Positions 4,315 to 30,915 of a stretch of 52,030 nt of DNA are shown piece after piece. The first letter of the stretch is position 1. Every line of letters starts with the position of its first letter. This stretch comes from Candidatus Stahliibacteriota bacterium. Lineage in GTDB: Bacteria > Hydrothermota > UBA3072. The position numbers and the translations under genes are program-made. The notes below the pieces were generated by a model. It saw only the letters and a program-made list of their open reading frames with translations. It made no database searches and had not been told where the DNA came from. The stretch is from NCBI GenBank assembly GCA_004377355.1, contig SOIB01000066.1, positions 1 to 52,030 of the forward strand, given 5' to 3'.

Positions 4315-5554
4315 TATAAGATTTGTAGAAGAGCACATAGAAGAACTAAAGGAAGTCTCAGAGAAAAAAGGACTCTCCTTAGACTTTCAAGGATTTAGAA
4401 AATTAAACAAGGAGAGAAAATCTTTGAAGGGTGAAGTTGATGAATTCCGTAGAGAAAAGAATAAGAAGGGGCAAAAGGTTGGAGAACTAAAAAGAGAAGG
4501 AAAAGATGCTTCATCATTATTGTCAGAACTTGAGGACTTGAAGAAAGGAGTGACAAAAAAAGAAAAGGAATTAAAAGAGATTCAAAAGAAGGTAAACGAT
4601 TTCATTTCCTGGATACCAAACAGAGTTCATCCTTCAGTTAATTCTGAACCCACAGTTATAAAGGAGCCCACTGGAATTAAAAAATTCTCCTTCACACCAA
4701 TTGATCATATTAACCTCGGAAAATCTCTTGGAATTCTTGATTTTCAGCTAGCCTCTACTGTTGCAGGTAGCCATTTTGCTCTATATAAGGGCAAGGGTGC
4801 TATCCTTGAAAGGGCTTTAATTAACTTTATGTTAGATCTACATACAAAGCGTCATGGATATACAGAAATCTTTCCTCCTTTCCTGGTTAATGAATATTCG
4901 ATGTTCACAACGGGTCAGCTCCCGAAAATGAGAGATGATATGTATATAACAAAAAGGGATGGGCTTTTCTTAAATCCTACTGCAGAGGTCCCTTTAACTA
5001 ACATTCTCGCCAATAAAATACTGGAAAAAGAAGAAATTCCAATCAAATATTGTGCTTATAGTGCTTGTTTTAGAAGGGAAGCTGGTTCCTATGGAAAAGA
5101 AACCAAGGGGTTACTACGGATTCACCAATTCAATAAAGTTGAACTTGTGAACTTTGTTCACCCTGAAGAATCCTATAATACACTTGAGCATTTATTAAAA
5201 GAAGCATTGGTTGTAATTGAACTTCTTGATTTACCACATCGTGTAATTCAGTTATCTATTAACGAACTATCTTTTGCTTCCGCAAAAACCTACGATATTG
5301 AAGTGTATGCACCCGGGGTAGATAAATGGCTTGAAGTCTCCTCTATAAGTAATTTTGAGGATTTTCAGGCCAGAAGAGCCGGGATCAGGATAAAAGAAAA
5401 GGGGGGAACAATACATATTCATACACTAAATGCATCTGGTGTTGCTACACCAAGACTTCTGGTTTCTCTTATGGAAAACTATCAGACAGATAAAGGGGAA
5501 ATTATTATTCCAGATCCTCTAATTCCTTACACTGATTTTGAAAAGATAGGTTGA
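4307..5554 (+). CDS. serS: Seryl-tRNA synthetase
   Basis: Class II aminoacyl-tRNA synthetase charging tRNA-Ser and tRNA-Sec, 415 residues, full length. Residues 1-100 are the long antiparallel coiled coil that grips the tRNA variable arm, rich in Lys and Glu. The catalytic domain contains LNPTAEVPLTN, motif 2 FRREAGSYGKETKGLLR and motif 3 ASGVATPRLLVSLMENYQ. In motif 3 the usual small-residue sequence before the catalytic Arg is ATPR rather than the common AVGR, still with Arg in place. The start overlaps the preceding gene by 8 bases, so the pair forms an operon. It ends convergently 21 bases from the CRP-like gene at 5576. Confidence 0.96.
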   Translation: MYNIRFVEEHIEELKEVSEKKGLSLDFQGFRKLNKERKSLKGEVDEFRREKNKKGQKVGELKREGKDASSLLSELEDLKKGVTKKEKELKEIQKKVNDFISWIPNRVHPSVNSEPTVIKEPTGIKKFSFTPIDHINLGKSLGILDFQLASTVAGSHFALYKGKGAILERALINFMLDLHTKRHGYTEIFPPFLVNEYSMFTTGQLPKMRDDMYITKRDGLFLNPTAEVPLTNILANKILEKEEIPIKYCAYSACFRREAGSYGKETKGLLRIHQFNKVELVNFVHPEESYNTLEHLLKEALVVIELLDLPHRVIQLSINELSFASAKTYDIEVYAPGVDKWLEVSSISNFEDFQARRAGIRIKEKGGTIHIHTLNASGVATPRLLVSLMENYQTDKGEIIIPDPLIPYTDFEKIG

Positions 5555-5575
5555 ATTAAAACTATTCTCTTAATC

Positions 5576-6265
5576 CTATAGTTCAAACTTTTTGCTAAGA
5601 GAAGCTATGTCTTCAAATTCCTTAAGCCTTTCGCACTCCTCCTGAATTATAACAAGTTCTTCAAATTCATCGAGCTTTTCCATAGAGTTTATTATAATCG
5701 CTTCATCAACTTCAATAATATCTTCCTTTTTAAGTTTTTTGAGAAAATCTTTTACTTTAGAGGGCTCAAGAGCCAATATAACAGATATTTCTTCAACATC
5801 AGAAGATATTCCAGTATCAATATTAACTCCAGTACCTGTATCATTCTTCTTTGCCCTATATTTTAGATAGCGAATGAATCGTATTATATCGTTCGGAATA
5901 CCATGATATATCCACATTTCATTAACCCTTCTAATACGATGTGTAAGTGTACTTATAGTATATTTAATAAAAGGATTTTCGTTAATTTTTGAGAGAAAAG
6001 CATCTCTATCTACAATAATTAGTTCAGTATCAGTCTCCGCGATTGCTGAGGCTGAACGGGGCCTTTTATCCAGCACAGCCATTTCTCCAAAAAATGAACC
6101 TTCACCCAGAAATGCCAGGGTCTTTTCTTCACCATTATCCATTTCCTTGACAATTCTTACTTTACCAGATTTTATAAGATACATTTCATCATCCAGATCC
6201 CCCTCACGAAATAAGGTTTCTCTTGCTTTCAGTATCCTTTCGTACCCGATATTCTTTAATTCCAA
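5576..6265 (-). CDS. CRP-like cyclic-nucleotide-binding-domain protein, paralogue A
   Basis: A 229-residue protein. Residues 1-125 are a CAP-type beta-roll with phosphate-binding-cassette-like GEMAVLDKRPRSASA. The following helical part ends in a region (EEISVILALEPSKVKDFLKKL) that could be the winged helix-turn-helix of a CRP/FNR regulator, though it is divergent. It is the tandem paralogue of the gene at 6343: the first 120 residues are near identical between the two, the C-terminal halves are diverged, and A carries a longer tail (res 205-229). A possible role is transcription control by a small ligand or redox signal. No cysteines typical of FNR are seen. Ligand and target are unknown. 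Confidence 0.8.
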   Translation of the reverse strand: MELKNIGYERILKARETLFREGDLDDEMYLIKSGKVRIVKEMDNGEEKTLAFLGEGSFFGEMAVLDKRPRSASAIAETDTELIIVDRDAFLSKINENPFIKYTISTLTHRIRRVNEMWIYHGIPNDIIRFIRYLKYRAKKNDTGTGVNIDTGISSDVEEISVILALEPSKVKDFLKKLKKEDIIEVDEAIIINSMEKLDEFEELVIIQEECERLKEFEDIASLSKKFEL

Positions 6266-6342
6266 TTAAACCCTCTGAAAATGAATAACTTTTACCTTAT
6301 TATTTGATTAATAAACTATAAAATAAGGTTATAATAGGAATG

Positions 6343-6984
6343 CTATCTTTCGAATTCCTCCTGTAAGGCGATAAAATCTTGATATTTATTGAGTTTTTCC
6401 ATTGATTTTATTATTATAGTATCTTGAAGTTCAACAATATTATACTTTGTTAATCTATTCAGAAATTCTTTTATTTTATTAGAATCCAGACCTATCATAT
6501 TCGTAATTTCCTTTCCATGTATATCTATACCTGTATCAATGTACTCTCCTGTTCCTTTGTCGTTCTTTCTTCCTTTATCACTTAGATAATGGATAAAACG
6601 CATTTGTTCATTATGAACTGAAACATACTTTAGCATATCATCAGTCTTTCTAAGGCGTTCGGTAAGTGTTAATATAACATATTTAATAAAGGGATTTTCA
6701 TTAATTTTACGAAGAAAAACATCTCTATTCACTATAATCAGTTCAGTGTCAGTTTCAGCTATTGCTGAGGCTGAACGAGGTCTTTTATCTAAAACAGCCA
6801 TTTCTCCAAAAAATGCCCCCGCTTCCAATACAGCAAGGGTCTTTTCTTCCCCTTTACTCATTTCCTTGACAATTCTTATTTTACCAGATTTTATAAGATA
6901 CATTTGATCACCCTCATCACCCTCGCGGAATAATGTTTCTTCTGCTCCCAGTGTCTTTTCGTACCCTATATCTCTCTCAGGCAT
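6343..6984 (-). CDS. CRP-like cyclic-nucleotide-binding-domain protein, paralogue B
   Basis: A 213-residue paralogue of the neighbour at 5576. It has the same beta-roll core with GEMAVLDKRPRSASA and TETDTELIIV-type strands, and the shared stretch KINENPFIKY marks the end of the ligand domain. A candidate DNA-recognition region is GKEITNMIGLDSNKIKEFLNRL near residue 155-176. The start follows a clear AGAGGAGGT-type Shine-Dalgarno in the 12-base gap after efp. It therefore lies immediately downstream of efp and is probably cotranscribed with pepQ and efp. The 77-base gap between the paralogues is AT-rich. Tandem duplication followed by C-terminal divergence is the simplest explanation. Confidence 0.8.
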   Translation of the reverse strand: MPERDIGYEKTLGAEETLFREGDEGDQMYLIKSGKIRIVKEMSKGEEKTLAVLEAGAFFGEMAVLDKRPRSASAIAETDTELIIVNRDVFLRKINENPFIKYVILTLTERLRKTDDMLKYVSVHNEQMRFIHYLSDKGRKNDKGTGEYIDTGIDIHGKEITNMIGLDSNKIKEFLNRLTKYNIVELQDTIIIKSMEKLNKYQDFIALQEEFER

Positions 6985-6996
6985 AAGACCTCCTCT

Positions 6997-7554
6997 TTAT
7001 TTCCTTTCGGAGTAATCTCCAGTTCTTGTATCTATAACTACCTCATCCCCCTCGTCAATGAATAGCGGTACTTTCACTGTAGTACCTGTCTCCAATACAG
7101 CTGGTTTTGTACCTCCCTGAGCTGTGTTGCCCTTTACACCCGGTTCAGTTGACGTAACTGTTAAAGTTACAAAATTGGGAAGTGATATTCCAAACACTCT
7201 TCCTTCTGTAATCCTCACTTTATATTCCATACCCTCTCTTAAATAAGCTTTAGTTGAACCTATCTTTGATTCTTCTATAGCATATTGCTCAAAATTTTCC
7301 ATATCCATAAAAATATAATTTATATCATCCTTATAGAGGTACTGTGTTTCTCTTTCTTCCAACTTTAACAATTCAAAATTGTCACCTTTTTTAAATGTTT
7401 GTTTAATTGTCGATCCAGTTTCAAGGTTTTTTAGAGTAGTTCGGACAAAAGCCTGTCCTTTACCTGGATTTACGTGAAGGAAATCTACCACTTCGTATAT
7501 TGATTTGTCGAATCCTATTATTAAACCCTTCCTGAGGTCACTTACTGAACCCAT
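6997..7554 (-). CDS. efp: Translation elongation factor P
   Basis: Relieves ribosome stalling at polyproline stretches. The 185-residue length and three beta-barrel domains are normal. The tip loop reads NPGKGQAF with the modifiable lysine at residue 32; no EpmA, EpmB or other modification gene is in the window. The C-terminal domain contains the family signature region EVVIDTRTGDYSER. The ATG lies one base after the stop of pepQ, so translation is probably coupled. The pairing of efp with an Xaa-Pro peptidase gene is widespread in bacteria. Downstream, 12 bases separate it from CRP-like paralogue B. Confidence 0.97.
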   Translation of the reverse strand: MGSVSDLRKGLIIGFDKSIYEVVDFLHVNPGKGQAFVRTTLKNLETGSTIKQTFKKGDNFELLKLEERETQYLYKDDINYIFMDMENFEQYAIEESKIGSTKAYLREGMEYKVRITEGRVFGISLPNFVTLTVTSTEPGVKGNTAQGGTKPAVLETGTTVKVPLFIDEGDEVVIDTRTGDYSERK

Positions 7555-7555
7555 C

Positions 7556-8626
7556 TTATAGGACTATCAATTCCCTTTCAGAGTTAGTTAATACATCACC
7601 TCTTTTATTACGAATCGCAACTATATCTTCAATACGTATACCTTGATATTCAGGTAGATATATACCAGGTTCGATTGTAAAGACCATTCCGTTTTCCACA
7701 ATTCCATTATGGTTTTTAATTGAAACAACTGGCGCCTCGTGAACATCTAAACCTACACCATGCCCTAATGAATGGGTAAAATATTTCCCATACCCACTAT
7801 TTTCTATGTAATTCCTGGCAATTCTGTCAAGGTCTTTCAATTTGGTTCCCTCTTTAGTAGCTTCTCGAGCAAGCTTTTGCGCCTGATAAACTACATCATA
7901 GAGATCCTTATCTTTATCTGTTGGAGTGCCTACGAATACAGTTCTTGTCATATCAGAAGCATAACCTCTATAATAAGTGCTAAAATCCATCACGACAAAT
8001 TCCCCTCTCTTAATCTTTTTATCTGAGGCAGTTCCATGTGGAATAGATGAACGAAATCCTGAAGCAACAATGGTATCGAATGCTACCTTTTCACCTCCCA
8101 ATTTCTTCATTCTGTATTCCAACTCGGCTGCAATCTCTATCTCTCGAACCCCAGGTTTTATATAATCTAATACTTCTAAAAATGCTTTATCACTTATCTC
8201 ACAGGCTTTTTTAATATTCTTAATCTCCTCCTTTGTCTTCTTAACTCTTAAATCTTCAATAAAAGAATCAAAACTCTTGAATTTTAACCAGTCGAACTTC
8301 TTTCTTAACTCCCAGTAGAGATTATAGGAAACGTGTCTTGATTCGAAACCTATACGGTCTTTTCTCTTTATAACTCTTTGAGTTGCAATCTCTTTAAAAT
8401 ATTTCTTCCTGGTTAAACAAACCTCTACATTATGAACCCGATCTACTACTTCACCTTGAAATCTGTAATCTGTTATCAGTTTTACCTTACGGGGAGAGAT
8501 AAAAAGAATACCGGCATCACCGGTAAATCCTGTCAAATAATATATATTCTTTAATGAAGTTACTAAGAAGCAGTCGATATTATTACTTTTAAACTTACTC
8601 TGTAATTCTTTTATTCGATCGGGCAC
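7556..8626 (-). CDS. pepQ: Xaa-Pro aminopeptidase / dipeptidase (M24 family)
   Basis: Dinuclear metallopeptidase that cleaves the bond before proline; 356 residues. Residues 1-125 are the creatinase-type N-terminal domain (FLVTSLKNIYYLTGFTGDAG). The pita-bread catalytic domain follows. Metal ligands are visible as Asp in VMDFSTYYRGYASDMT, His in HSLGHGVGLDVHE, Glu in FTIEPGIY and Glu in GIRIEDIV. The start is a GTG at 8626, just after the TAA of the TPR gene. It is cotranscribed with efp. Cytoplasmic, since no signal peptide is present. PepP and PepQ cannot be told apart on sequence alone. Confidence 0.93.
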   Translation of the reverse strand: MPDRIKELQSKFKSNNIDCFLVTSLKNIYYLTGFTGDAGILFISPRKVKLITDYRFQGEVVDRVHNVEVCLTRKKYFKEIATQRVIKRKDRIGFESRHVSYNLYWELRKKFDWLKFKSFDSFIEDLRVKKTKEEIKNIKKACEISDKAFLEVLDYIKPGVREIEIAAELEYRMKKLGGEKVAFDTIVASGFRSSIPHGTASDKKIKRGEFVVMDFSTYYRGYASDMTRTVFVGTPTDKDKDLYDVVYQAQKLAREATKEGTKLKDLDRIARNYIENSGYGKYFTHSLGHGVGLDVHEAPVVSIKNHNGIVENGMVFTIEPGIYLPEYQGIRIEDIVAIRNKRGDVLTNSERELIVL

Positions 8627-8628
8627 AA

Positions 8629-10089
8629 TTATTTCCCGCTCAAACCATCAATCCAATCATGAAAACTATCATCATCTTCCCCCTCCACCTCCTTTGATTT
8701 ATCCTGAATCTCTCCTTTCTTAAATCCTTCAGTTTCTATAGGTGCTTTTTTATCTAACTTTGAAAAAATACCTTCATCACCTTCTTCTTTACCACTTTCA
8801 CTTAAATCCTTTTTCTTTGCTTCACTCTTTAATTCATCAATTTTCTTCTTTATCTCCTCATCTTTATTTTTCTCATATAATTCTTCATAGATTTCTAAAG
8901 CTTTATCAACAAATCCTCTTTTTTGATATAACTCTGCTAGCTCTGGAGTTAATCTTCTTTCCTCGGAAACCTCCCTTTCCCTGGCTACTTCAACTTTTAC
9001 CTCCTCCTTTTCTTCTTCAATAGGAATAACAGCTTCTTCAATTTCTTCTAACTTTTCTACCTCTTCTTTTTCTTCCCCTATTTCTTCAAATTCTTCAATC
9101 TCTTCGTCAATACTTTCATCTCCAAATACCTCTGTAAATTCCATCTCCTCCTTATGAGCTACCTCTTCAACTTTCTCTTCCTCTATCACAGTAGCTTCGG
9201 GAGGTTTCTCTTCGCTTTTTATTTCCTCCTCTTGCTTTCCAAAGAACTCTTCAAATCCGAATTCCTCTTTAACTTCTTCTGCTTCATAAGCAGTGGACAC
9301 TTCCTCCTCTACTTCTTCCTCTTCCAGTATCTCCTCTACAGCTTCTTCTTCTGGCTTTTGGATCTCCTCAAATTCCATAGTCTCTTCTTCTCCTATCCCT
9401 TCATCAAGGGAAAAGATACTCTCAATTTCCTCTTCAGAAACTTCTTCTGTAACTTTTTCTTCCTCGCCAGGAACTTCAGATAATTCAGGTTCTTCCTCCT
9501 TTAATTCCTCTCCTTTCAAGCCTTCAATGTCTATTTCCTCAAAACTAGATTTTGGTTCTCCTTCAAGTTTCTCCTCTTCAACTACTAACTCTTCCTCCTC
9601 TGCTTCTGGTTCTTCCTCTAAACTGGGGAATTCTTCTCTTTTGAAGTATGAGGACAATCCCTCTTCACCTAATCCTCCTACTTCTTTACTTTCCTTTTCC
9701 TCTATCTCTCGGAGCATCCTTTTCGCTTCCCTATCCAAAGGGTCTAATTCTAATAATCTATTTAATACTCTTTTAGCACTTATGTTATCATTCTGCTCCA
9801 TATATAACTCGCTGAGTTCCTTTAAAGCAAGGATGCTCTGTCTATCTAATTTAGATGCTGTATCCAGATGCTTTATAGCCTGCTCTATTCCCTTTTTCTC
9901 TTTAAAACATCTTCCAAGAACCAAGAATCCTGTAGCATATTCAGGATGCTTCTCTATCCCTCTTTCTGCTATTTCTATTGCTTCCTCTAAAAGTCCTTCC
10001 TTTCTTAATAGATCTGCATATTGAGCAAATAAAAGAGAATCCGGATCTTTTTCCAGGCGTTCTTTAAGTCTATTTAATTCATCACTCAT
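8629..10089 (-). CDS. TPR protein with long glutamate-rich linker
   Basis: A 486-residue protein without signal peptide or membrane segment. Residues 1-130 hold three to four TPR units (for example AIEIAERGIEKHPEYATGFL, AIKHLDTASKL). Residues 140-370 are a very acidic low-complexity stretch dominated by Glu. Residues 375-410 carry another TPR-like pair (TPELAELYQKRGFVDKALEI). The end is acidic and closes with SFHDWIDGLSGK. The tail motif with aromatic, Trp and Leu looks like a short docking peptide (inference). A strong promoter and an AAGGAG Shine-Dalgarno precede it, and it leads the TPR-pepQ-efp unit. Function unknown. A scaffold role beside the motility machinery is possible but unsupported. 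Confidence 0.8.
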   Translation of the reverse strand: MSDELNRLKERLEKDPDSLLFAQYADLLRKEGLLEEAIEIAERGIEKHPEYATGFLVLGRCFKEKKGIEQAIKHLDTASKLDRQSILALKELSELYMEQNDNISAKRVLNRLLELDPLDREAKRMLREIEEKESKEVGGLGEEGLSSYFKREEFPSLEEEPEAEEEELVVEEEKLEGEPKSSFEEIDIEGLKGEELKEEEPELSEVPGEEEKVTEEVSEEEIESIFSLDEGIGEEETMEFEEIQKPEEEAVEEILEEEEVEEEVSTAYEAEEVKEEFGFEEFFGKQEEEIKSEEKPPEATVIEEEKVEEVAHKEEMEFTEVFGDESIDEEIEEFEEIGEEKEEVEKLEEIEEAVIPIEEEKEEVKVEVAREREVSEERRLTPELAELYQKRGFVDKALEIYEELYEKNKDEEIKKKIDELKSEAKKKDLSESGKEEGDEGIFSKLDKKAPIETEGFKKGEIQDKSKEVEGEDDDSFHDWIDGLSGK

Positions 10090-10106
10090 AAGAACTCCTT
10101 TTTTAT

Positions 10107-10135
10107 AATATAAGAAAAAAACTTATCTGTGTCAA
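10107..10135 (-). promoter_or_regulatory. Promoter of the TPR-pepQ-efp unit
   Basis: Minus strand: TTGACA (10135-10130), 17-base spacer, TATATT (10112-10107). The match and spacing are near ideal. It gives a short leader that includes the AAGGAG Shine-Dalgarno of the TPR gene at 10089. Confidence 0.7.
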
Positions 10136-10152
10136 TAGGTAAAGCTTCTTTA

Positions 10153-10623
10153 TCAATCTCTTTCATTCTCTGATAATTCCTTAAATTGCACCACCAGAAC
10201 ACCCGCCTCTTTCAGTATTTCCATTGCGAAGGAATCAGGATAACCCTCTTTATAAATGATCTTTTTTACCCCAGCATTTATCAACATTTTAGAACATGTA
10301 AAACATGGGTGAGTAGTTACGTATAGAGTCGATTCTTCTATTGAGATACCTACTTTAGCCGCCTGAATTATTGCATTCTGCTCAGCATGAATTGCCCTGG
10401 AAAGCTCCATTCGTTCTCCAGAAGGAATTTTGAGTTCATCACGAATGCATCCACCCCTTTGTTCACAATGCGTAATTCCACTTGGTGGTCCATTATAGCC
10501 AGTTGTTAGTATTCTTTTATTACGAACGAGTACAGCACCAACTTTTCTCCTGAGACACGTTGCTCTACTAGCAACAAGTTCAGTAATCTTCATAAAATAT
10601 TCATCCCATGATGGTCTACCCAT
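10153..10623 (-). CDS. comEB: dCMP deaminase (ComEB family)
   Basis: Zinc enzyme of 156 residues, deaminating dCMP to dUMP, the substrate of ThyX. The zinc signature is complete: HAEQNAII supplies His and the catalytic Glu, and PCFTCSKML supplies both cysteines. An extra Cys/His-containing stretch ([14 protein letters not shown], residues 51-64) matches the second structural zinc site common in this family. GGAGG precedes the ATG by about 10 bases. The gene stands alone between the TPR gene and the YbaK-type gene. Together with thyX at the window start it would supply dTMP without a dUTPase step; no dut gene is seen here. Confidence 0.93.
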
Positions 10624-22492: not shown

Positions 22493-23354
22493 AGGTTTCA
22501 CCCTTTCCTATTCCGATTAAATTACCCAGATGATTTTTTACCTGATATAATCCTTCAGGATAGAATCCTCTAACCTTTCCTCCATGAACAAAATTCCAGA
22601 CACCTTCCTCATCCAGGGTTATTGCAGATAAATGTGGTAATGCATCCCTCAATTTTATAACCTTCAATTTACCTTCCTCAATATCACTTAATTTTAAAGC
22701 GTCGGTAATATCATATGGATCGACTTTAACTCTTGTTAATTTACTCAAGTGGGCTCCATACCCTAGAGAGTTTCCAATATCTCTAGCCAGAGCACGCATA
22801 TAAGTACCTCTATTTGCTATACATCGCATAACAAAGAATGGAGGAGAAAAATCCAATAATTTAAGTTTCTTAATATATACATCCCGGATTGGTAAGTCTT
22901 TAATCTCTATACCCTCTCTTGCTTTCTTATAGAGTCGTTCTCCATCCTTCTTTATTGCACTATAAAGAGGAACCTTCTGTTTAATTTTTCCCCTAAATTT
23001 AGGGAGAACCTCCTCAAGTTTTTCCTTTGGAAAATCTGGAACAGCGGTTTGTTTAATAATATTTCCGTCTGGATCATCCGTATCTGTTATAATACCCAAT
23101 CTAACTGTACAAATGTATTCTTTAAAATCCCCTATATATTCCATCACTTTGGTTGCGTTTCCATATAATACAACAACTAATCCTTCAGCAAATGGATCAA
23201 GTGTTCCTGCATGACCAGCTTTTTTGAGATGGAGAATTTTCTTTACTCTGTTTAATAAGGCTGTGGTTCTTATTCCAGAGTCCTTATTTACAAGAATCAC
23301 TCCATCAGAAGGAATACTGTGCTGAGAGTCTATAGTTTGATGTTTCAAATTCAT
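22455..23354 (-). CDS. truB: tRNA pseudouridine-55 synthase TruB
   Basis: Makes pseudouridine 55 in the T-loop of tRNA. The catalytic motif HAGTLDPFAEGLVVV, with the essential Asp, is clear, as are GRGTYMRAL-type NRGTYMRALARDIG and the N-terminal ILVNKDSGIRTT. The start is uncertain: ATG 23354 gives about 299 residues but has a weak ribosome site and overlaps the PorV-like gene by 50 bases. GTG 23300, just after the PorV stop, would begin close to the usual family N-terminus. A longer frame to 23414 exists but is unlikely. The C-terminus holds a small PUA-like tail (GKVRGFYPEGLYQVKN). Confidence 0.93.
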   Translation of the reverse strand: MNLKHQTIDSQHSIPSDGVILVNKDSGIRTTALLNRVKKILHLKKAGHAGTLDPFAEGLVVVLYGNATKVMEYIGDFKEYICTVRLGIITDTDDPDGNIIKQTAVPDFPKEKLEEVLPKFRGKIKQKVPLYSAIKKDGERLYKKAREGIEIKDLPIRDVYIKKLKLLDFSPPFFVMRCIANRGTYMRALARDIGNSLGYGAHLSKLTRVKVDPYDITDALKLSDIEEGKLKVIKLRDALPHLSAITLDEEGVWNFVHGGKVRGFYPEGLYQVKNHLGNLIGIGKGETYAVQPVKVLYST

Positions 23355-24333
23355 ATATTTCTTGATCTGCTGAAATGTCAAAATAAAAGGTCTTATACTG
23401 GAACCCTGCTCCAAATGTTGGACCTACCCTTTTACCTATTCGGTCAATAAAATACCCCGACCTTAAAGAGAAAAGCTCATTAAAGATATATTCTATACCA
23501 GCTGCCTTCCAGGTATCTTCCCATATCCCGCTAAAGTCAGTGTAATCATCAATATTTACAATGATTTTTGTTAAGTCTATATTAAATCTCAGTTGATGGC
23601 GTTCATTCTCAAGAATTCCAAGTGAAGAACTTAATCGAATAGTTCTGGGAAGAGGATCAGAATTGCCACCTTCAATATAACGTATCTCTGTTCCCATATT
23701 CTGAAAGGCCAGTCCCAGACGTAATACACTAAGCCAATCCATTCCTAAGGCATTAATATTCATAAAATTATTCCATCTGTAAAAAACTGAACCATCTAAT
23801 GCCCATGCATGGCCTGTACCTCCACTTAAAACACCACCAATCTCTCTTCCTAATTCTTCAATTACATCATCAGGAGCCAAAAAGGAATATATATACTTCA
23901 TACCAAGAGAAAGACCCAGTTTTTCCGAAACGGGCATTGTTCCCGCTAATTTAATAGCAATATCATAAGTAATCCATTCCCTTTCTAATCCACCTACTGT
24001 GGCCAAGGTTCTACCGGTGGTTAGATAAATTATTGTAGCTGTAAAATTAATATCTCCTGCAACTGGCATCAAAAACGCAAGATATTCATAATACATACCT
24101 GGATAAAGTCCTGGTAACCAATTTGAGTGTTGGAGACCAATAATTTTCTTTTGAGTAAATGCCAAGCATGCATTATTGTAATAAGTTGAGAATATATCAC
24201 CCTCTATAGCTCCAAAAGCTCCACCCATCGAAGTTGCTCTTGAACCTGGGAATATCATTAAAAAAACCGCTCCGGCTTCAAGTGAACTTGAGAATAGTGG
24301 TAGCACACAAACCAATAATGCAAAAACAATCAA
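23305..24333 (-). CDS. PorV/PorQ-family outer-membrane protein
   Basis: A 342-residue outer-membrane beta-barrel of the PorV/PorQ type, partners of type IX secretion that carry or shuttle cargo. The family hallmark begins right after the signal peptide: GSRATSMGGAFGAIEGDIFS, then YYNNACLAF and a run of amphipathic strands to the C-terminal Phe of LSAQYSF. The only standard start codon, TTG 24333, leaves a signal peptide without basic residues. Four codons upstream an in-frame ATA at 24345 sits ideally behind GAGGAGG and would add two arginines (see findings). PorV-like proteins are common in FCB-group lineages even where the rest of the secretion machine is elsewhere. Confidence 0.85.
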   Translation of the reverse strand: MIVFALLVCVLPLFSSSLEAGAVFLMIFPGSRATSMGGAFGAIEGDIFSTYYNNACLAFTQKKIIGLQHSNWLPGLYPGMYYEYLAFLMPVAGDINFTATIIYLTTGRTLATVGGLEREWITYDIAIKLAGTMPVSEKLGLSLGMKYIYSFLAPDDVIEELGREIGGVLSGGTGHAWALDGSVFYRWNNFMNINALGMDWLSVLRLGLAFQNMGTEIRYIEGGNSDPLPRTIRLSSSLGILENERHQLRFNIDLTKIIVNIDDYTDFSGIWEDTWKAAGIEYIFNELFSLRSGYFIDRIGKRVGPTFGAGFQYKTFYFDISADQEIYEFETSNYRLSAQYSF

Positions 24334-25681: not shown

Positions 25682-26077
25682 ATGAAGTATAAAATTAATA
25701 TTGGGTTTACTTTGATTGAATTAATGATTATAATAGTAATCATCGGAATCCTTGCTGCTATCGCAATCCCTAATATTATAAAAATTATAAACAGGGCGAA
25801 GGAAGCTAGGGTTAGGAGTAATATTCATACCGTGCAATTTGAGGTAGAGTTATATCAAGTTGACCATCCCGAGAGTTATCCATCAGATGTTGATGTAATA
25901 AAGCACCATCTCCCAGCACATTTGAAGAACCCCTTTAATGAGACGAACCCTGTTCTTCAATATGCGAGTGATCTTGATATCGATGGAGTGGTTGAGTGCA
26001 ATTCGGAAATTCTACGAAAAATGGATTTTTTTTTAAATACCATTGACAAATTGTCCATTATTATTTATAATTGCTAA
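25682..26077 (+). CDS. Type IV pilin-like (prepilin) protein
   Basis: A 131-residue prepilin with a short basic leader (MKYKINIG) and the class III signal: cleavage after Gly, then FTLIELMIIIVIIGILAAIA with Phe+1, Glu+5 and the hydrophobic stalk helix. The globular part (KHHLPAHLKNPFNETN) resembles small type IVa pilins or type II pseudopilins. The ATG at 25682 is chosen because the TTG at 25664 lies inside the sigma-54 promoter. No disulfide-forming pair is obvious; a single Cys is the last residue. PilT-like ATPase is encoded at 33039, but no assembly ATPase or prepilin peptidase is nearby. It is followed after six bases by the first secreted protein of the chaperone locus. Confidence 0.85.
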   Translation: MKYKINIGFTLIELMIIIVIIGILAAIAIPNIIKIINRAKEARVRSNIHTVQFEVELYQVDHPESYPSDVDVIKHHLPAHLKNPFNETNPVLQYASDLDIDGVVECNSEILRKMDFFLNTIDKLSIIIYNC

Positions 26078-27847: not shown

Positions 27848-29674
27848 ATGACCCTTTTTCTTATTTCGTTTACATATTTTTCCCAACTTAGCCATAACCT
27901 ATATCAGTATCAGGAAGAGACTTTTTCGGTTACAAGCTGGGGAATTGAACTTGAAGAAGATCAATGGACCATCTATTCCCGTTTATACAGATATCAAAGG
28001 ATGGCAGGGCTTAAGGAATTTACTTTCCGATACGATTCAATATTGATTAATAAGAACTATTATCATTTATTGGCTGGGGATAATAATAGAGTAAGAGGAC
28101 TTCTGGTTGGATCGAAAACAAAGGGTTTTGGGTGGGATTTGCAAGTAGGGAAAATGCAGGATATTATACCAGGCCCATTCCCAACCTATAATAGGAATCT
28201 CTTCTATTCTGAGTTAGATCTCAGCATTTCCGGTCATAATTTTTTCCTTATGGGTAGATGGGATAAAGATAGTTATCTACCACTCCTTGGAGACCAATTT
28301 GTGTTTAAACATGGAAACCTTAGTCTGTTGAACGACATTAAGATCAGTTATAGAGATCGCCCCGGGATAGCTTTATATGAAGATCTTTATTACAAAAGGC
28401 CCAATCTCTTCTTACGCTCATTTCTTCGTTATTTTAGTTCGGGATTTTCCGATAAAGAGAATATAGTTTACAGCAGGGGAAGGGTGAACTGGGGGATGAA
28501 TTCTTCATATAGGTTCCCCTCTGGTCTTTCTATCCATTCAGGAGCGGGGTTCAGAGGAATGTTGGATGAAAAACTGGAGTATCTGTTTTTGGGAGGGCTA
28601 TCTTTTTATATGCCGGGAAGGATCTCATTTGATTTTACCAATAATCTTATGGGGGGAGGATACAGGGATTGGGGATATAGGCGTTATCTCAGACTGAATG
28701 TGCCTTTCAAGCGGCATCAATTTCTAGTCAATTATGAAAAGAGTAGCATTAATAGGGAAAGGGAGTCCTTCGGTTTAGAAGGCCAGTTCTATCTTTCAAG
28801 TAGGAGCAGGCTGGATCTTTCCTTTGAAAGGATGAGTCTTTATGGATGGGATATCTCCTTTGGCGGAATGCTTTCTCCCTTCAGGAATCTCAAGACAAAC
28901 TGGAGATTCCAGTATCGAGAAGATCGTCTCTATTATAATACCTCTCTTTCCTGGATTGGTTGGGGGAATTGGATTGGTAGATTCGGTATAGCCGGGAATA
29001 CGGAGACTAATTCAAAACAATATCGACTTGAAATAACGAAAAGCGGTACTCTGGAGAAATTTGGCATCGGTGGGGTTACGGGTTTGGTCTGGCAGGATGA
29101 AAATGGAGATAGGATAAGACAGGAGGGAGAACCTCCAGTCAGGGATATTGAGGTAATCCTTGATGAAGAGAGGAGGACGAAGGTTGATGAGAGGGGCAGG
29201 TATAAATTCAGACTGATCCCGAAGGGAGAACATACCATAAAACTTGATATCAAAGGAGTTCCCGCCTTTTTAGGTACGGAAAGGGTTGAGAAAAGTTTTA
29301 CAAGTGGCTTCTTTGATGTACAGGTAATAGATTTTCCTATCTACGGACTTTCCTCTATTCAGGGTAGAGTCTACTACGATAAAAATCATAATTTAAAATG
29401 GGATCCCGATGAAGGAGGCGTGCCCAACGTAAGGGTAACAGTAAAGATAAAGAAGTTCGAGAAGTATACTTACACCTGGCAAAACGGTACATATCTTATT
29501 AGCAACCTTGTACCTGGAGTCTATACCGTTACTGCTTCCATTCTTCCTCCTGGCTATGAATTAAGTCCTAAGGGGCTGGTTTTATATATCGAACTCACTC
29601 CCGGAACAAAGATAAAAGGACTAAATTTTGGGGTGGCTACCCCGAAGAAAGAGGTAGAAATAAAAAGGTTCTGA
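27848..29674 (+). CDS. Outer-membrane barrel-like protein with two SdrD-B-type domains, candidate usher
   Basis: A 608-residue protein. A short hydrophobic start is followed by some 400 residues of alternating aromatic and polar strands with tight turns (for example SLNDIKISYRDRPG, NWRFQYREDRLYYNTSLSW), the look of a large beta-barrel. Residues 415-515 and 516-600 each hold an SdrD-B/carboxypeptidase-regulatory-like domain with the pattern GxVxxDxNxDxxxxxGE and a later GRYxFxLIPxG (seen as GLVWQDENGDRIRQEGE and GRVYYDKNHNLKWDPDEGG). Classical ushers are about 800 residues with a plug domain; this is shorter and I see no plug. The usher role is inferred from the neighbours. Confidence 0.65.
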   Translation: MTLFLISFTYFSQLSHNLYQYQEETFSVTSWGIELEEDQWTIYSRLYRYQRMAGLKEFTFRYDSILINKNYYHLLAGDNNRVRGLLVGSKTKGFGWDLQVGKMQDIIPGPFPTYNRNLFYSELDLSISGHNFFLMGRWDKDSYLPLLGDQFVFKHGNLSLLNDIKISYRDRPGIALYEDLYYKRPNLFLRSFLRYFSSGFSDKENIVYSRGRVNWGMNSSYRFPSGLSIHSGAGFRGMLDEKLEYLFLGGLSFYMPGRISFDFTNNLMGGGYRDWGYRRYLRLNVPFKRHQFLVNYEKSSINRERESFGLEGQFYLSSRSRLDLSFERMSLYGWDISFGGMLSPFRNLKTNWRFQYREDRLYYNTSLSWIGWGNWIGRFGIAGNTETNSKQYRLEITKSGTLEKFGIGGVTGLVWQDENGDRIRQEGEPPVRDIEVILDEERRTKVDERGRYKFRLIPKGEHTIKLDIKGVPAFLGTERVEKSFTSGFFDVQVIDFPIYGLSSIQGRVYYDKNHNLKWDPDEGGVPNVRVTVKIKKFEKYTYTWQNGTYLISNLVPGVYTVTASILPPGYELSPKGLVLYIELTPGTKIKGLNFGVATPKKEVEIKRF

Positions 29675-29946: not shown

Positions 29947-30522
29947 TTATCTCACCATTATTAACTTCTTGGATGAATTGTAATCCCCTGCCACAATCCT
30001 ATAGAAATACGAACCGCTTGGAACTTTTTCTCCTTTCTCATTTCTTCCATCCCAAATAACTGTATATTCGCCGGGTTCCTTTTTGCCCTCGACAAGAATC
30101 CTCACTAATTGACCTGCTAAATTATATATTTTGAGCGATACTTCCCCTTTTTCCTGAAGGATATAGCGGATTCTTGATTCCTTTACACCCTTAAAGAGTA
30201 TTTCATACACGCCATCCTCATTAACATCTATCAATCGGGGGCTCAAAAGTGGGTGATACCAACCACCGTAGCTGTCTGCACCATCCTCAATATAATTCCA
30301 CTTCTCAGATTCCCATTCTAAGTTTCCTGTAGTTCCATCAATTACAAGTATCCTATCGGAAAGAAAAACAACTTCTTTTGTTGCATCCCCATCAGTATCT
30401 TCACATCCAATAAAAAGATATGCTTCAGTGTCCCAAGTCTCTTGGTATTGAGCGCTTACTGGATAAACCATAAATCCAAAAATTCCAACCATGATTAGTA
30501 TACGGAATAAGTTTTTAAACAC
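29947..30522 (-). CDS. Small secreted protein with Ca-binding-type repeat and C-terminal sorting domain
   Basis: The start is GTG at 30522, with AAGGAGG five bases ahead; this gives 191 residues, and a further upstream ATG is not needed. A signal peptide (VFKNLFRILIMVGIFGFMVY) ends near Ala-Gln. Two Asp-rich turns, DTDGDATKE and DVNEDGVYE, resemble FG-GAP/EF-like calcium loops. The C-terminal 80 residues form a FlgD-Ig/sorting-domain type unit: YNLAGQLVRILVEGKKEPG, WDGRNEKGEKVPSGSYFYRI and the closing KKLIMVR. It would be exported and anchored by a PorV-type route (inference). It looks like a shortened version of a larger repeat protein, as most such cargos are several hundred residues. Confidence 0.75.
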   Translation of the reverse strand: MFKNLFRILIMVGIFGFMVYPVSAQYQETWDTEAYLFIGCEDTDGDATKEVVFLSDRILVIDGTTGNLEWESEKWNYIEDGADSYGGWYHPLLSPRLIDVNEDGVYEILFKGVKESRIRYILQEKGEVSLKIYNLAGQLVRILVEGKKEPGEYTVIWDGRNEKGEKVPSGSYFYRIVAGDYNSSKKLIMVR

Positions 30523-30915
30523 TTTAACCTCCTTATTTTTGCTTATTTTACAACAATATTTCTTCATAGGCAAGCTTTTCACCTAAATTTGTTGGAAGGA
30601 CGTAAATTATAAAATTAACTTACTATTACAATATTTTCATTCTCCCCCCTTTTATAAAATATAAACAGATAAATCAGACAAGCCAAAAAACCCTTATTTT
30701 CAATTCCTTTCTTCAAAATTCAGAAACATTAATAACTTCCCAAAATATAAGGTTTAAAAATGATTTTATAGTAATCATAACACGCTCCAAAAAACTTGAC
30801 ATCATTTATATTTTTGTTATATTACAAAAGCAATGTTTGAGACTAGGATAATTTCATTAGAATCTAGATTCGCGAAGTTGGCACAAACAAGATTTAATGC
30901 TTTATAAGTTATTGA
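30523..30915. other. Intergenic region with tRNA promoter
   Basis: AT-rich, no gene seen. Holds the upstream region of the minus-strand sorting-domain gene and the tRNA promoter at 30796-30823. Otherwise I see no repeat or conserved structure in it. Confidence 0.5.
30796..30823 (+). promoter_or_regulatory. Promoter of the two tRNA genes
   Basis: TTGACA (30796-30801), a 16-base spacer and TATATT (30818-30823). The first tRNA begins at 30916, giving a leader of about 85 bases before processing. Confidence 0.65.

Follow-up and report, generated by a model that had tools for sequence, protein, structure and literature searches.

What does a protein do that joins a large predicted barrel to two C-terminal SdrD_B-type modules: does it display those modules at the cell surface, or does it serve to assemble something else there? 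The protein in question, P0001, is encoded in the window, the whole 52,030-nucleotide stretch of DNA that was analysed, and an earlier note on this stretch had offered both that the modules replace the C-terminal domains of an usher and that they stick out as an adhesin. We propose that P0001 is very probably the outer-membrane assembly platform, or usher, of a divergent chaperone-usher-type system, one without the N-terminal domain and the plug. The ushers FimD and PapC recruit subunits through the N-terminal domain, and their pore is gated by the plug. Ushers consist of five domains, namely the N-terminal domain, the pore, the plug and two C-terminal domains, CTD1 and CTD2 (PMC3960871). That P0001 works like a FimD/PapC usher is well supported, as set out below. 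The chaperone-usher pathway itself is known; the form of it found in P0001 is new, and a literature search of partial journal coverage returned no plug-less ushers and no chaperone-usher systems from WOR-3.

P0001 is the last gene of a cassette that lies on one strand (Table 1), in which one to three small secreted subunits are followed by a PapD-like chaperone and then by the barrel protein. Here the gaps are 14 bases between P0004 and P0003, 43 between P0003 and P0002 and 6 between P0002 and P0001, and 4-base overlaps are typical between the genes of related cassettes. Cassettes of this kind occur across the phylum WOR-3, the relatives being metagenome assemblies. In all family barrel genes with upstream sequence the chaperone gene lies directly 5′ or is separated by one subunit gene. 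Where the sequence extends far enough, one to three subunit-family proteins are found near each barrel gene, with no obvious large adhesin among the cassette genes. The barrel protein was matched in 29 of 100 related genomes, a few of these being bare SdrD_B matches, and P0002 in 31 of 100; the P0002 profile had matches in 39 of 147 genomes from the phylum, and in about 32 of the 39 the match is a single protein of P0002 size. Two loci, L091 and L092, encode SdrD_B-type proteins without a cassette and were left out of the P0001 family.

Table 1. Features of the cassette and of P0001, with positions in the window
Feature	Position	Strand	Remarks
Promoter-like TTGACA-17-TATAAT	26043..26071	+	12/12 positions, just 5′ of the P0004 gene; sequence match only
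Second secreted subunit P0004, 146 aa	26084..26524	+	Same superfamily as P0003
Secreted subunit P0003, 179 aa	26539..27078	+	N-terminal strand-like extension, C-terminal beta strand
Predicted PapD-like periplasmic chaperone P0002, 239 aa	27122..27841	+	Two Ig domains
Usher-like outer-membrane protein P0001	27848..29674	+	ATG start, 608 aa
Predicted beta barrel (aa 16-401)	27893..29050	+	AlphaFold2: 24 strands in aa 28-401
GD...RG motif (aa 77-84)	28076..28099	+	Profile-aligned with FimD LGD...FRG, strands just before the classical plug
Site of the classical plug domain	28112..28126	+	Just ~5 residues (aa 89-93) between two strands
First SdrD_B-type module (aa 404-500)	29057..29347	+	Read as CTD1; invariant PA aa 472-473
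Second SdrD_B-type module (aa 501-597)	29348..29638	+	Loop DxNxNxxxDxxE (Ca-type); read as CTD2
Conserved C-terminal tail, K-x-F end (aa 598-608)	29639..29671	+	Alignment of homologues

Several other genes were seen around this and related cassettes. Directly 5′ lies a type IV prepilin-like ORF with an N-methylation motif (25682-26077, +), which does not occur in related cassettes and within whose 3′ end the perfect sigma-70-like promoter sequence falls. Further upstream is a type IX secretion-related outer-membrane protein of the PorV family (23305-24333, -), and 3′ of the cassette a short protein with a FlgD/T9SS-like C-terminal sorting domain (29947-30582, -) that seems to be what is left of a longer exported protein. 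Export of P0001 by the T9SS, an idea raised by the PorV neighbour, was rejected as P0001 carries no T9SS sorting domain. Elsewhere, one genome holds an orphan chaperone and subunit pair without a barrel gene (L062, G005:C17, 5034-6270) in addition to a complete cassette. In another (L089, G059, 4663-10392) a chaperone and two subunits lie beside two adjacent ORFs (662 and 587 aa) that contain Ig-like, CarboxypepD-like and barrel-like sequence; this may be a different usher architecture. Proteins of ~520-560 aa match the chaperone profile in G011, G066, G081, G133, G134 and G135, and several of these genomes have a tandem pair.

A Pfam scan placed SdrD_B (PF17210) over two stretches of P0001 (E 1.3e-17; 64.4 bits, cut-off 29.7). 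CarboxypepD_reg likewise exceeded its cut-off, on the same two modules, and no further Pfam domain did. The protein contains two D/N-rich loops, DENGDR and DKNHNLKWDPDEG, and residues D417, N419, D511 and N513 are unchanged in 22 relatives. The module loops are among its most conserved parts, together with the PA pair of the first module and the terminal K-x-F, in which F608 never varies among the aligned homologues and K606 hardly does. Its N-terminus is signal-peptide-like, short and uncharged; very short signal-like N-termini without positive charge occur in several exported proteins of the cassette (starts 26084, 27122 and 27848).

The AlphaFold2 model of P0001, built on an alignment of 10 sequences (the window and its relatives), has 24 beta strands in residues 28-401 and then two small beta domains. 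The mean pLDDT is 70.5, with values mostly of 70-91 in the first barrel half and the C-terminal domains and of 40-60 past about residue 240, in the second barrel half. The inside/outside alternation of hydrophobic residues in the predicted strands exceeded that of 2000/2000 within-strand shuffles, and is equally regular in the last ten strands, where pLDDT is low, and in the first fourteen. The FYxY-like conserved segment at aa 16-22 may be the first barrel strand or an additional one. Neither fewer than eight membrane strands nor a soluble beta-helix, the outcomes named by the earlier note as counting against it, was therefore predicted, and its description of a large barrel with two C-terminal SdrD-B-type domains and an Asp/Asn-rich loop present twice stands.

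When the P0001 model was compared with the PDB by Foldseek, the top five matches were all FimD (1.8e-13 to 1.3e-12) and PapC was in the top ten (8e-10), these matches spanning ~750 alignment columns over the full length. TM-scores against FimD were low, 0.3-0.4, as would be expected with a poorly modelled second barrel half. Profiles gave a further line of evidence, for which 12 classical ushers, and also eight from K-12, served as the comparison set; the E-values given are for single comparisons. The profile of 23 WOR-3 P0001-family proteins matched the eight K-12 ushers in the C-terminal domains (E 4.8e-5, score 52), and the intact classical profile aligned with the P0001 family over 107 columns with a score of 54.8. 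Cutting the plug from the classical profile raised the score to 65-66 (probability 92%, E 5.4e-7) and extended the alignment to ~452 columns, starting at the GD...RG strands, crossing the barrel and ending in CTD2. We take the plug to be approximately FimD 285-372, borders that were fixed from prior knowledge of FimD ahead of the cut scan. Cuts of 88 residues at 30 other positions of the classical profile scored 32-53, 99 shuffled profiles scored at most 24, and TonB receptors and LptD reached 19-25 points against the P0001 profile. The usher plug sits between beta6 and beta7 (PMC4356140), and an internal plug is absent from P0001 at this position, where there are ~5 residues. The profile of the classical N-terminal usher domain has no match in P0001, whose barrel begins near aa 16-28, and the 6 bases that separate the start codon from the chaperone gene leave no room for such a domain. 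Pfam Usher (PF00577) has zero matches in P0001 and matches in 0 of the 100 WOR-3 genomes searched.

Both the profile alignment and the full-length Foldseek matches place CTD1 and CTD2 in tandem behind the barrel, and by this alignment the SdrD_B-type modules are probably the CTD1 and CTD2 of classical ushers, in the same order. P0001 has a barrel, CTD1 and CTD2, and therefore three of the five usher domains; since it is without plug, N-terminal domain and Pfam Usher match, it is not simply a FimD/PapC usher. The link to ushers drawn in the earlier note, and the internal plug that it found missing, are thus borne out. Its suggestion that the modules may replace the usher C-terminal domains was the better of its two options and needs rewording, as they probably are those domains, whereas its statement that the C-terminal domains of ushers are of another type is not supported, given their alignment with the modules. 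The chaperone, the subunits and the missing N-terminal usher domain go beyond what it named here.

The subunits P0003 and P0004 belong to two families that are related to each other (hhalign 98%). A beta strand forms the C-terminus of both types; the longer type has a stretch such as TATLTLKISNSVGITV between signal peptide and core, and in most major-type subunits a strand-like N-terminal extension is retained ahead of the first core strand. Compared with K-12 subunits, PDB and Pfam, they gave zero significant matches to known pilins by sequence; their sequence pattern nevertheless fits that of donor-strand subunits and is suggestive of donor-strand exchange. The idea that small secreted proteins supply a plug or N-terminal domain in trans was rejected, as profiles A7 and A8 match neither. 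An usher-derived barrel could also secrete single subunits as a pore for coat proteins and assemble no fibre, a role to which the presence of no more than one to three subunit genes in a cassette, the lack of an obvious large adhesin and the absence of the plug and N-terminal domain, both of which act in the ordered pilus growth of FimD and PapC (PMC3960871, PMC8410936), would be suited. We consider this unlikely, as the chaperone and the C-terminal domains are retained and the N-terminal extension kept by most major-type subunits is what donor-strand exchange needs.

The AlphaFold2 model of P0002 (mean pLDDT 91) consists of two Ig domains, with a flexible low-confidence stretch at aa 118-128, the place of the F1-G1 loop in PapD-family chaperones, and after it a strand resembling the subunit-binding G1 strand (LLQLAGRIGISTYLEI). 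The features of the PapD-like superfamily, two Ig domains, a long F1-G1 loop and a hydrophobic G1 strand, are thus all found, and judged by model and sequence P0002 is a PapD-like chaperone. Its first Foldseek match in the PDB is WxLIP (2e-10), followed by CfaA, FimC, Caf1M, CsuC, CupB2, YadV, EcpB and PapD over both domains. With hhalign the P0002 family matches 11 E. coli K-12 chaperones at 95% probability over 191 columns, and PapD_N was matched in 4 of 25 family members (best E 1.4e-5). WxLIP is also the top sequence match of P0002 (E 0.0012), hinting that WxLIP and pilus chaperones share ancestry. These matches to WxLIP, with WxLIP_PGBD found in 7 of the 25 family members, and the fact that the known SdrD_B domains belong mainly to surface adhesins would agree with a barrel that is a surface anchor, whose outward modules bind the small Ig-like proteins or display them as a coat or adhesin with P0002 as a WxLIP-like partner. 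That arrangement is quite unlikely, given that the modules align with usher CTD1-CTD2, that P0001 has its best full-length structural matches in FimD and PapC, and that pilus chaperones make up most of the top 50 structural matches of P0002. Furthermore, we infer that the modules are periplasmic because a barrel with an even number of strands and its N-terminus in the periplasm would leave a following C-terminal domain there too. The protruding adhesin of the earlier note is disfavoured on this topology and by the place of P0001 as the last gene of a subunit-chaperone-usher cassette.

Taken by itself, the barrel resembles ushers less distinctly. In the barrel-only Foldseek comparison FimD (3e-5) and PapC (4e-5) are closely followed by the TonB receptors BtuB and Cir (1e-4), and the barrel-only profile comparison with classical ushers is weak, 7% at best, locally picking one motif in which the P0001 GD...RG (residues 77-84) lies on FimD LGD...FRG. 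Convergence, in which an unrelated porin-like or transporter barrel was fused to common prealbumin-like domains, would produce such generic matches and the low barrel-only score, and is very unlikely when the plug-excision effect is confined to the plug position, the GD...RG strands align locally with those of FimD and the cassette is in its context a chaperone-usher operon.

We propose the following model for the P0001 usher. Subunits would reach the periplasm, where the chaperone completes their fold by donor-strand complementation, and the chaperone-subunit complex would dock on the periplasmic SdrD_B-type CTDs. The N-terminal strand of the next subunit would then displace the chaperone, adding a subunit to the fibre, and the growing fibre would go through the barrel to the cell surface. 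CTD2 of PapC both captures the chaperone-subunit complex and moves it (PMC8410936). Because P0001 is without an N-terminal domain, its CTDs must in this model both recruit and hold, possibly helped by the conserved K-x-F tail; because it is without a plug, another closure of the pore is needed, which may be the fibre itself, a narrower barrel or another protein. Fibre formation and recruitment by the CTDs alone are what we infer from these parts. More tentatively, P0001 might represent a minimal usher lineage, possibly pre-dating the plug and N-terminal domain, which builds donor-strand fibres through a permanently ungated barrel and in which the CTDs alone recruit, exchange strands and hand over.

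The barrel-protein form is, on sequence comparison, spread over two phyla, WOR-3 and Deinococcota, with a longer barrel protein in the latter. The same cassette is found in a Thermaceae MAG (L105), with a barrel protein of 978 residues, and complete cassettes lie on large plasmids of Deinococcus (L106, L107), their genes annotated as hypothetical. Profiles of the two groups match at 100% probability for the chaperones, 99.2% for the C-terminal domains and 99.4% for the subunits. The Deinococcota barrel proteins alone (3 sequences) fall short of the classical ushers by profile, and are tied to the WOR-3 family because they share the cassette, CTDs, chaperone and subunits. These homologues, and the WOR-3 family L090 (940 aa), apparently have two Ig-like domains ahead of the barrel, so that the wider family would include another kind of N-terminal domain.

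An usher with neither N-terminal domain nor plug, and widespread, would reveal which components the machine cannot do without. It would extend chaperone-usher-type assembly to WOR-3, a phylum in which the search detected no known usher, and explain the 'hypothetical' gene clusters of Deinococcus. It would also connect the C-terminal domains of ushers with the SdrD_B/prealbumin-like fold, and the chaperones of ushers with the WxLIP proteins of Gram-positives.

Among known systems the closest are FimD, PapC and EcpC (PF00577), which like P0001 have a barrel and then two C-terminal domains, align with it over ~450 columns once the plug is removed, and are encoded beside a PapD-like chaperone and secreted subunits. 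Unlike them, P0001 is without the N-terminal periplasmic domain and the plug, its GD-to-RG region is shortened, its CTDs belong to the SdrD_B type and have Ca-type loops, the Usher model is blind to it, and its family is found in WOR-3 and Deinococcota. Archaic chaperone-usher ushers, like those of the other classes, are expected to have five domains. Archaic systems (Csu, CupE) have been reported from Deinococcus-Thermus (PMC4654587). They have their general cassette logic in common with the P0001 cassette, and CsuC is among the structural matches of P0002. WxLIP binds WxL domains at the Gram-positive surface and has, to our knowledge, no outer-membrane barrel partner. The WxLIP of Gram-positive WxL clusters (DUF916/DUF3324, PMC10599100) has tandem Ig domains as in P0002, but differs from it in cell envelope and role. 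Finally, the SdrD B domains of staphylococcal MSCRAMM adhesins have PF17210 and the Ca-type loop in common with P0001; there they are part of a wall-anchored adhesin, whereas in P0001 two copies follow an outer-membrane barrel.
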